64,000 bases of DNA from an uncultured Nitrosomonadales bacterium. Lineage in GTDB: Bacteria; Pseudomonadota; Gammaproteobacteria; Burkholderiales; Methylophilaceae. The stretch is from contig CAJWVO010000001.1 in assembly GCA_913048465.1 (NCBI GenBank), forward strand, positions 1-64,000, in the 5' to 3' direction. Below, piece after piece: positions 15,878 through 19,980 of this stretch (positions are counted from its first letter, which is position 1; the number at the start of each line of letters is the position of its first letter). The notes beneath the pieces are model-generated. The model had not been told where the DNA came from. It searched no databases and saw only the letters and a program-made list of their open reading frames with translations. Position numbers and translations under genes: made by a program.

Positions 15878-17788
15878 ATGTTTCCTAAGTTATCAAGCAA
15901 TCCCTACCATCCATTTTTAAAGGCTTATCTTTTTGGTTTAATTTTTTTTAGCCTTTCTAGGTTGGGATTAATCTTTTGGCAGTTGGATGCAGTTGATGCA
16001 ACCGATAAATTTTTAAATATTATCGTACAAGGTGTTCGAGTAGACCTTATCCAGCTGGGATTAATGTTATTAATTCCCTTATTAATTTTTCCACTCAGTT
16101 TCATTAATGGTCAAACAAAAAATATTTTCTTTGCATTTTTAAGATTTTGGATCATTGTCAGTTTTATTATTTTATTCTTTATCGAAGCATGCTCAATCAC
16201 ATTCATCAATGAATACAATACAAGACCTAATGTCCAATTTCTTGAGTACTTAAAATATCCCAGAGAAGTCTTTGAAATGTTATTTAAGGGATTTACCATG
16301 GATGTAATTTTAGTGGTTGGATCTATGTTACTTGTCTCGAAATTTATTATTCTTGCATTCCGAAAACAAAATCAGATTGAGACTAAATTCATTCACCTTG
16401 TGATTTGGCCAATCATCCTCGTCTTAATGTTGATCAGCATTAGGTCTAGTTTTGGTCACCGTCCTGCCAACCCAGCAATCTTTGCTATCACAGACAATGC
16501 CATGGTGAATTCTCTTATTCTTAATTCCCCATACTCTGTATTTTACGCTGCTTATAGTATGAGGCATGAAACTTCGGTCTCAAAAGTGTATGGAAAGATG
16601 GATATTGATAAAATTTATTCTCTGACTGATCAACATGGCCCGGCTGAATACCCAACCCAAAAATTGTTAACGCCAAGCTATCAAGGTAAGAAAAAAAATA
16701 TTGTTATCCTCCTTCAAGAAAGTTTGGGTGCCACTTTTGTAGAGTCCCTGGGTGGAGCACCCGTTACTCCAAATTTAGAAAAATTAAAAAGTGAGGGCAT
16801 TTGGTTTTCCCAACTGTATGCCACAGGGACAAGATCAGTACGTGGTATTGAGGCCATCGTCTCGGGATTTCCACCTACACCTGCGCAAAGTACAGTGAAG
16901 CTGCCATTATCTCAATCTAATTTTTTTACCCTGGCCTCTTTGTTAAATGAGAAAAATTATGAGACAAGTTTTATTTATGGTGGAGAAGCTCATTTTGACA
17001 ATATGCGCAATTTTTTTACTGGGAATGGTTTTAAAAAAATAATTGAACAAAAAGATTTTACTAACCCAATTTTTAAAGGGAGCTGGGGTGCGTCAGATCA
17101 GGATCTATATCAAAAGGCACATGAAGAATTCTTAGAACGTCATAATCAAAACCAACCCTTCTTCAGCTTAGTCTTTACCTCGTCCAATCATGCCCCGTTT
17201 GAATTTCCAGAGGGTGTAATTGATCTATACGAGCAACCACAAGCCACAGAAAAAAATGCTGTGAAATATGCAGATTATGCTCTAGGTGAGTTTATAGAAA
17301 AAGCAAAACAGAGTGATTACTGGGAAAACACTATTTTCTTGGTTGTTGCAGATCATGATATCCGCGTCCGCGGAGATTTTTTAATTCCAATTAAAAATTT
17401 TCATATACCTGGCTTAATCATAGGGGGTGGTATTGATCCCAAAGTCATTAACTCGATTACTAGCCAAATTGATTTACCAGTGACTATGCTTTCATTGGCA
17501 GGCATTCATGCCAAACATCCTATGATTGGACAAGACATGAGCGCTATTGATAAGTCCTATAATGGCCGAGCGGTTATGCAGTACTACGAAAACTTTGCTT
17601 GGATGGAGCAAGACGAACTCTTTATTTTACAACCTAACCAAGAAATTTTTTACGGAAAGTATGACTTAATAAATAATAAAATTATCCCAAGCGATAAAAA
17701 TAATATTATCTATGACAAACAGTTAGCACATGCCCTGCTGCCAAGTATTTTATATAGTCAAAAACTTTATAGATTGCCTCCACAATGA
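15878..17788 (+). CDS. LTA synthase family / sulfatase-fold membrane phosphotransferase
   Basis: Five N-terminal TMs, then sulfatase domain: NIVILLQESLGATFVESLGGAPVTPNLEKL, GTRSVRGIEAIVSGFPP, FSLVFTSSNHAPFEFP, LVVADHDIRVRG. Confidence 0.88.
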   Translation: MFPKLSSNPYHPFLKAYLFGLIFFSLSRLGLIFWQLDAVDATDKFLNIIVQGVRVDLIQLGLMLLIPLLIFPLSFINGQTKNIFFAFLRFWIIVSFIILFFIEACSITFINEYNTRPNVQFLEYLKYPREVFEMLFKGFTMDVILVVGSMLLVSKFIILAFRKQNQIETKFIHLVIWPIILVLMLISIRSSFGHRPANPAIFAITDNAMVNSLILNSPYSVFYAAYSMRHETSVSKVYGKMDIDKIYSLTDQHGPAEYPTQKLLTPSYQGKKKNIVILLQESLGATFVESLGGAPVTPNLEKLKSEGIWFSQLYATGTRSVRGIEAIVSGFPPTPAQSTVKLPLSQSNFFTLASLLNEKNYETSFIYGGEAHFDNMRNFFTGNGFKKIIEQKDFTNPIFKGSWGASDQDLYQKAHEEFLERHNQNQPFFSLVFTSSNHAPFEFPEGVIDLYEQPQATEKNAVKYADYALGEFIEKAKQSDYWENTIFLVVADHDIRVRGDFLIPIKNFHIPGLIIGGGIDPKVINSITSQIDLPVTMLSLAGIHAKHPMIGQDMSAIDKSYNGRAVMQYYENFAWMEQDELFILQPNQEIFYGKYDLINNKIIPSDKNNIIYDKQLAHALLPSILYSQKLYRLPPQ

Positions 17789-19980
17789 AATTAATTCATA
17801 TATTCATAAATTTAAAATATCTCTCACAATTTATTCTGTTTTATGCGCGATCAAATTTAAGACATATTGAAAAAGCAGATACACCTCATGTTGTTCCCGA
17901 AAATTTTATCGGAGTGAATATTGCCAGTAATGAAAATGAAGAGACTGACGAATATATCTTAGATAAAATTCAGGATCTGGGAGTAAAAAACCTAAGGATG
18001 TATTTCACATACCAAGATTTGAACAATCATAAAGCAAGATTGCTAAAAAAATTAAAACATTTTAGTGGATCCATCATTGTCAACCTCAGCCCTCCACCCA
18101 AAGATGCTATTGATATATCAACTGAACATGGAATGATCGCTTGGAAAAATTTTATCAATAAATTTTTTACTGATTTTAAAGAAATTCCATTTGCAGTAGA
18201 AATAGGATCCACTATTAACAGACCATCATGGACAAAACTCACTTTCAAAAGCTTCTTCATGATCTGGGCCGCCACTTACTCAGTGTGTCGAATTCATAAA
18301 CGTTCTATCATTGGTCCCAATATTTCCGACTTTGAACCCTTTATTAATTTTGGGATATATAAATCTTTGCAATCCAAACATCAGCTACCAGATGAGATAT
18401 CAAATAATCTATTTATGGAAAGAACGATTGAACCAGAACCATACGATCGTCGTATTTTTTTAAGAAAATATCCAAAGCTGTTTAAGTTTGATATTTATAA
18501 AAAATCAGCCCTATATAAAGTTATAGCAGAGCACTTTAGTATTAATTCCCTGATATCTCCATGTGCTTTCTGGAGTAAAAAAAGAGTTAATAGACTTATA
18601 GGCCAAACAAATCTTCAAAGGTCTAAGTATGTGACACGCTACTTTGCTCTATTAGCAGCTAAGGGTGACTTTTCAAAAGTATTTTGGGGTCCTCTGGTTT
18701 GTGGTCGTGAAGGGCTGATCTCCAACGGCATCAATGAACCGGATTATCCCAAGCTAGAACAGGTCACATACTACAAAGAGGCTCGGGGTCGAATTTCTGA
18801 CTTTAATATAAAAAAAATGTTCTATGCCCTACGTTTTTTTAACGCTACTATTCCTGGCGCTAAATTTATTAAGGATTACTCTCATGGTCAAAATATTCAT
18901 ATCTTAGAGTTTGAAAAAAATAATCAGATCATTCATCTGTTATGGACACAAAATAATCTAATTCAAGATATTCAACTTCACTATCATTTAAATGATTTAA
19001 GCAATGGGCAATATAAAGATCATCTTGGCAATGAGATTGAAACACCAGATACCATAACTGAAAATCCCATCTATATTTTTTGGAATAAATCATACCAACC
19101 AAATTTAATTCAGTTACCCAAAATCTCTAATGATTATTTTATTCACCATGATCGTGAAAATTATTTTTTTCTTCATGATGACAAATGGGATGGACTCATT
19201 AAAGCAAATAGTAAAACAGCATTAAATTCATTTTTAAAGGCTTGTCATCCATCAAAACTTTTTAGTCCTGACAAAAAAAATAGTCTCCGATTATCTAGAA
19301 ATGCTGTGTGGAGTCTCGTTATTCCAAATTTTGGCAAGGTCGTAATCAAAAAGCCGGCACATATCTACCCACACAAACGTTACCTTGATCGAAACCGACC
19401 TAACAAATCCATAAGAGCATGGAATGGAGCAAATGCTTTACTTGCTAAAGGAATTAATACAGCAGCTCCAATTGCAGTATTTAGTAAAAAGAATGATAAG
19501 ACAGGTCTTGAAAATTACTATATTTGCTTGCACAGTGATGCTTATAACTTTAACGACCTCGCTATCCATTTCCAGACTGAAAACACATTCAAAGGTTTAA
19601 GCAAAAGACATATTTTTGAACGTAGTGCCAATTTTATTAATGATATGCATGGTCGTGGTTTATTTTTTAATGACCTATCTGCGGGGAATCTCTTTATTAA
19701 CATTAATGATAAACACTTTGATTTTGAATTAATTGACACAGGAAGGGTGAAGAATTTTTACAGCAATCTCAGCTTCCAATCACGTAAGAAACAACGTATG
19801 AAAGACATCGTAAGACTGCTTAATAAATTTGATTGGGAGACTAGAAATATTTTCCTTAAACATTATTTCCAACTCAATAATCAATCTTTATCCCTTTTAG
19901 ATAAGCTATCTCTCATAAAGTACGACATTTTTGTTGAAACCAAAAGATTTAGAAAGAAAATACAAAAAAAACTCTCATGA
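17785..19980 (+). CDS. fusion: glycoside-hydrolase-like (TIM-barrel) N-terminus plus WaaP/InaA-type lipopolysaccharide kinase-like C-terminus
   Basis: 731 aa. C-terminus has kinase-like motifs (GKVVIKKPAHIYPHKRYLDRNRPNKSIRAWNGANALLAKGI, HGRGLFFNDLSAGNLFI, FELIDTGRV). N-terminus (GVNIASNE...YILDKIQDLGVKNLRMYFTYQDL) resembles glycosidase barrels. ATGA overlap with upstream gene. Confidence 0.7.
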   Translation: MKLIHIFINLKYLSQFILFYARSNLRHIEKADTPHVVPENFIGVNIASNENEETDEYILDKIQDLGVKNLRMYFTYQDLNNHKARLLKKLKHFSGSIIVNLSPPPKDAIDISTEHGMIAWKNFINKFFTDFKEIPFAVEIGSTINRPSWTKLTFKSFFMIWAATYSVCRIHKRSIIGPNISDFEPFINFGIYKSLQSKHQLPDEISNNLFMERTIEPEPYDRRIFLRKYPKLFKFDIYKKSALYKVIAEHFSINSLISPCAFWSKKRVNRLIGQTNLQRSKYVTRYFALLAAKGDFSKVFWGPLVCGREGLISNGINEPDYPKLEQVTYYKEARGRISDFNIKKMFYALRFFNATIPGAKFIKDYSHGQNIHILEFEKNNQIIHLLWTQNNLIQDIQLHYHLNDLSNGQYKDHLGNEIETPDTITENPIYIFWNKSYQPNLIQLPKISNDYFIHHDRENYFFLHDDKWDGLIKANSKTALNSFLKACHPSKLFSPDKKNSLRLSRNAVWSLVIPNFGKVVIKKPAHIYPHKRYLDRNRPNKSIRAWNGANALLAKGINTAAPIAVFSKKNDKTGLENYYICLHSDAYNFNDLAIHFQTENTFKGLSKRHIFERSANFINDMHGRGLFFNDLSAGNLFININDKHFDFELIDTGRVKNFYSNLSFQSRKKQRMKDIVRLLNKFDWETRNIFLKHYFQLNNQSLSLLDKLSLIKYDIFVETKRFRKKIQKKLS

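Follow-up and report, generated by a model that had tools for sequence, protein, structure and literature searches.

A WaaP-family kinase fused to a pseudo-GH39 barrel in Methylophilaceae: a candidate glycan reader in lipopolysaccharide core phosphorylation

The window, a stretch of 64,000 nucleotides from a 1.2-Mb Methylophilaceae genome close to those of strain KB13 and of LSUCC0717/LSUCC0665, encodes a 731-residue protein (17785..19980; all features described here lie on the forward strand) in which a barrel of glycosidase fold, apparently lacking the GH39 catalytic glutamates, is joined to a WaaP-family kinase. Our favoured reading, held with somewhat better than even confidence, is that this fusion is a cytosolic kinase of the lipopolysaccharide (LPS) core with a built-in glycan reader, and that the membrane sulfatase encoded next to it acts later in the periplasm. 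The WaaP/InaA-type domain would use ATP to phosphorylate a sugar of the nascent lipid A-core on the cytosolic side of the inner membrane. The inactive glycosidase fold, on the same side as the kinase, would hold a defined core oligosaccharide beside it and might thereby set the order or specificity of phosphorylation. After flipping, the LtaS-like sulfatase could move a phospholipid-derived group, phosphoglycerol or similar, onto the same core.

Phosphates on the LPS core help to bind the outer membrane of Gram-negative bacteria together; in Pseudomonas aeruginosa WaaP is an essential enzyme (PMC6147952). Little is understood of the way in which core kinases pick out the correct sugar at the correct step. 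A glycosidase-shaped reader and a kinase on one chain make this recognition testable by binding studies and mutagenesis, and the finding also ties an LtaS-type sulfatase to the genes of LPS-core phosphorylation. In our literature search on glycosidase-WaaP fusions, pseudoglycosidase kinases and Methylophilaceae LPS, which took in few subscription papers and is thus weak evidence of absence, we found nothing on this architecture and no description of a glycan-reading kinase in LPS assembly.

Domain organisation and predicted fold

An earlier reading of the window, made from the letters alone (the sequence-only reading), had proposed a 731-residue open reading frame that begins inside the stop of the gene before it. 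Both are present: the ATG of the fusion overlaps the TGA of a 636-residue frame (15878..17788) as ATGA (17785..17788). The AlphaFold model of the full-length fusion, built on a 36-sequence alignment, has a mean pLDDT of 88.3 and a pTM of 0.88. It begins with a helix (residues 2-22; 17788..17850) that is possibly membrane-associating, with a hydrophobicity too weak for a clear membrane span. An eight-stranded β/α barrel follows (residues 37-355; 17893..18849), its strands running from 42-46 to 298-303, and leads into a β sandwich (about residues 356-446; 18850..19122) and the kinase domain (residues 447-731; 19123..19977).

Structural comparison places the N-terminal part among the GH39 enzymes. 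With the full model as query, Foldseek ranked the glycosidase PslG first (E 1.4e-13), followed by GH30 and GH39 enzymes, and gave the WaaP structure 6dfl (E 2e-7) as its best match for the C-terminal part. A separate model of the N-terminal part (pLDDT 89, pTM 0.91) again matched PslG (E 1.5e-16) as well as a Bacteroides GH39 enzyme (E 2.2e-16), at TM values of 0.65-0.70, so that PslG and other GH39 enzymes head the list for what is a TIM barrel with a β sandwich of GH39 type. The glycoside-hydrolase-like barrel that had been suggested for the first 450 residues or so is thereby borne out, with no sign of a different fold. Foldseek rank and residues together led us to reject a GH13 or trehalose-synthase-like reading of the barrel.

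At the sequence level this relationship is faint. Residues 1-450 match no Pfam or NCBIfam model, and a single-sequence phmmer search of the PDB with the fusion protein gave no matches. A profile of the N-terminal domain had PslG as its sole match among PDB sequences, a weak one (E 0.15) that includes the β7 region. The fusion thus reveals a domain (residues 37-446) that has no Pfam or NCBIfam model. Neither a tblastn search of plasmids nor a genome search for relatives of PslG gave a match.

Neither an export signal nor a membrane span was detected in the fusion: in none of 36 relatives does a 19-residue window exceed 1.6 on the Kyte-Doolittle scale, whereas the partner sulfatase reaches membrane-span hydropathy. 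Since signal and membrane segment are both missing, the fusion is probably cytosolic. WaaP, too, is cytoplasmic and acts on the nascent core (PMC6147952).

A glycosidase cleft apparently without the GH39 catalytic pair

In PslG the acid/base is Glu165 and the nucleophile Glu276 (PMC7237758, PMC11912335), and we took its barrel sequence for alignment from the PDB chain. Three MAFFT modes, hmmsearch and hhalign all pair Glu276 with Cys260 of the fusion (18562..18564), a position that holds V, A, S, C, N or Y in the relatives and never Glu or Asp. The GH39 nucleophile, a glutamate at the end of β7, is therefore firmly absent. For the acid/base, which in GH39 enzymes follows β4 in an NE motif, global hhalign (-glob; probability 76%) pairs Glu165 with Thr143 (18211..18213) in VEIGSTINR, directly after strand β4, and this residue is Thr in 32/32 full-length relatives. 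MAFFT gapped the β4 region and put Glu165 elsewhere, for which reason the assignment, based on hhalign and strand position, and with it the absence of the acid/base, carries moderate confidence. With both glutamates missing, the barrel probably does not act as a classical glycosidase, and the cleaving step implied by the glycan editing of the sequence-only reading becomes unlikely.

The cleft is nevertheless strongly conserved. The barrel has 42 positions invariant among 32 relatives compared to 28 in the kinase, and Nei-Gojobori dN/dS values between close pairs of 0.06-0.09 compared to 0.10-0.13. Its invariant residues cluster at the strand ends that shape a glycosidase-type cleft: E139, T143, N145, R146 and W149; N179, D182, F183 and E184; N208, F210, E212, R213 and E218; W263, R267 and R270; and W301, G302, C306 and R308. 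Such a cleft fits a barrel that probably serves as a built-in reader of a sugar chain, while its invariant acids E139, D182, E184, E212 and E218 could support a chemistry other than that of GH39.

The kinase domain

The C-terminal domain matches the Kdo/WaaP family PF06293 at residues 542-682 with 28.6 bits (cut-off 21.3), as do all 32 of the kinase-bearing relatives. The motifs by which a WaaP/InaA-type kinase had been recognised by eye are those described, namely VVIKKP with the catalytic K522, FNDLSAGNLF with the catalytic D630 and N635, and IDTGR with the Mg-binding D651, and each of these four residues is kept in 100% of the 32 relatives. A loss of catalytic residues in homologues, which would have spoken against a kinase, is thus not seen, and score, catalytic residues and the Foldseek match to WaaP agree. 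At residue 628, the position of the HRD His, 94% of relatives have Phe; L087 and L088 have His. Since this His is not strictly needed in atypical kinases, family membership can rest on score, fold and catalytic residues. The fusion falls far outside the Kdo kinase KdkA equivalog (NF002475; 16.8 bits versus 142).

The partner sulfatase

The 636-residue protein encoded upstream (15878..17788) consists of hydrophobic N-terminal segments followed by a PF00884 sulfatase domain (E 7.9e-48), in which the candidate catalytic residues E281, T318, H438, D492 and H493 are invariant in 16 orthologues. It belongs to the LtaS-type superfamily by domain and catalytic residues, and we take it, by family, to be a periplasmic phospholipid-headgroup transferase. 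Its score for the LtaS equivalog is 63, with a cut-off of 970, and for the OpgB/MdoB equivalogs it reaches 74.6 and 62.3 bits where 572 and 574 are required. MdoG/OpgG was found in none of 18 Methylophilaceae genomes searched, with E. coli as a positive control, which makes an OpgB-like role unlikely; together with the low scores it led us to reject OpgB as the function of the sulfatase. Of the proposed LTA-synthase/OpgE-like phosphotransferase, the LtaS type stands. A phospholipid-derived donor and the core as acceptor are its putative substrates.

Distribution and co-inheritance

We surveyed 122 Methylophilaceae genomes, each of them at least 90% complete apart from that of the window, and called a sulfatase orthologue when the score exceeded 1000 bits. 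The full-length fusion occurs in 68/122 and the sulfatase in 67/122: both genes are found in 67 genomes, the fusion alone in one (G160), the sulfatase alone in none and neither in 54 (Fisher 3e-34, a value that ignores relatedness and uses no species tree). Within genera g1, g7, g42 and g43 the two come and go, always together. As five genomes (G032, G158, G064, G159 and G161) carry them at separate loci, linkage alone does not account for this co-inheritance. All 68 genomes with the fusion have other, better-scoring PF06293 kinases, and the fusion is absent from all 43 genomes that lack such kinases.

To the sequence-only reading the pairing had looked uncommon, and a lack of conservation would have counted against that reading. 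It proves to be conserved and, within the family, widespread, and it is rare beyond: among 377 sampled genomes of the class outside Methylophilaceae four have the fusion, one of them with the sulfatase. In G216, G444 and G162 the fusion occurs without the sulfatase, which is thus not obligatory.

A search of 398 genomes of the phylum for the N-terminal domain without a kinase found none, and genus g41 is the one place where such a protein was seen. There, a barrel-only protein of 399-412 residues (L089:6200-7396, L090:5624-6820, L091:6327-7523, L092:6154-7389) is encoded at the syntenic place, flanked by the ammonium transporter and by the gene that elsewhere lies downstream of the fusion. It has lost the cleft residues and kept purifying selection (dN/dS 0.03-0.05), in a genus with neither PF06293 kinases nor the sulfatase. 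As g41 keeps the barrel by itself under selection, the domain seems to have a role besides that with the kinase. Genomes G014, G018, G019 and G109 and genus g41 yielded no PF06293 kinase and still have genes of the GT9 heptosyltransferase family; some streamlined methylotrophs may have lost LPS-core phosphorylation.

Genomic context

The fusion lies inside an LPS inner-core cluster in two lineages. In G032 and G158 it shares an ATGA overlap with the gene for a WaaC-like heptosyltransferase, and genes for a WaaG-like transferase, WaaP-like kinases and chaperones lie beside it. In G444 it is surrounded by heptosyltransferase, HldE-, GmhA-, WaaP- and WaaG-like genes; the same cluster encodes a 745-residue protein whose single chain combines a WaaP domain with another kinase-like domain (L087:11351-13585). 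In most genomes the pair lies outside the LPS cluster, which counts against an LPS-core reading. A separate core cluster of the window genome encodes two kinases together with a carbamoyltransferase (G000 contig C11, L125:9909-11633; compare Pseudomonas wapO); this cluster resembles the Pseudomonas core set waaC-wapG-waaP-wapP-wapQ-PA5006-wapO (PMC8005017).

The kinase and sulfatase families have been joined more than once. In G159 a different WaaP-type kinase and a second LtaS-type sulfatase form a single reading frame of 959 residues (L116:6222-9101), and in G161 the genes for a second kinase and a second sulfatase of these types overlap (L117:6149-8973). Both pairs lie near the gene that is orthologous to the sulfatase gene of the window.

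Alternative explanations

The sequence-only reading had suggested that the two genes could make or edit a phosphorylated envelope glycan. In its strongest form the barrel would be a working enzyme that uses other acids of the cleft (e.g. D182/E184/E212) to trim, transfer or remodel a core sugar, whose product the kinase phosphorylates. The invariance of D182, E184, N208, E212, R213 and E218 in 32 relatives and the strong purifying selection on the barrel would agree with this. Retaining GH-A enzymes, however, require both catalytic glutamates, both GH39 glutamates are missing here, and binding clefts, too, are conserved; we consider such an enzyme improbable. We give a little more credit, while still thinking it unlikely, to the idea that the barrel is a cytosolic device for quality control or ordering, which would proof-read the completed core, or use a new set of catalytic residues to remodel it, and so license phosphorylation before export. 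Chains that combine a barrel and a kinase are known from the trehalose synthase-maltokinase pathway, and trehalose synthase is among the lower Foldseek matches, so a soluble enzyme that converts and phosphorylates a storage sugar might be envisaged. We hold this to be very improbable: the barrel is GH39/GH30-like, not GH13, and lacks the catalytic residues, the kinase belongs to PF06293 and is not a maltokinase, and co-inheritance ties the gene to a membrane sulfatase and to LPS kinases.

The kinase might also act on another envelope glycan or lipid-linked sugar, such as a glycolipid, a capsule precursor or another polysaccharide. The pair adjoins an ammonium transporter or other genes outside the waa cluster in the window, as it does in most relatives, and the fold resembles that of an exopolysaccharide enzyme, PslG. 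Yet the fusion occurs only in genomes that retain other LPS-core-type kinases, it sits among inner-core genes in G032, G158 and G444, and no MdoG was found in the 18 Methylophilaceae genomes searched; we consider a target other than the core improbable. A phosphorylated envelope glycan remains the likely target, and gene context and co-occurrence point specifically to the LPS core. With moderate confidence we thus replace the glycosidase by a pseudoglycosidase reader and narrow the target to the core.

Comparison with known systems

The best structural match, the P. aeruginosa GH39 endoglycosidase PslG (PDB 4zn2/9g17), shares the barrel and β sandwich with the fusion, and local sequence likeness is recognisable around β7. 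It differs in its catalytic E165 and E276, where the fusion family has Thr and Cys/Val/Ala, and in a predicted signal peptide, whereas the fusion has no signal and continues from its barrel into a kinase. With WaaP, the LPS core heptose(I) kinase of P. aeruginosa (6dfl), and the WapP/WapQ/PA5006-type kinases, the fusion has in common PF06293 and the protein-kinase-like fold, the catalytic Lys, Asp and Mg-Asp, a cytosolic location (predicted for the fusion) and, in some lineages, the kind of gene cluster. Compared to WaaP it carries about 450 extra N-terminal residues, forming the barrel and sandwich, a Phe for the HRD His and IDTGR for DFG. The partner resembles the LtaS/OpgB-type phosphoglycerol transferases in PF00884, N-terminal hydrophobic segments and conserved catalytic residues, but scores far below the curated cut-offs of both, and the osmoregulated-glucan gene MdoG was not found in the Methylophilaceae searched. 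For the proposed reader, the closest parallel is offered by pseudoglycosidases such as Klotho, in which a glycosidase fold without the full catalytic pair serves binding. Klotho is GH1-like, and thus of another family, and is an extracellular receptor subunit of animals, whereas the barrel described here is joined to a bacterial sugar kinase.
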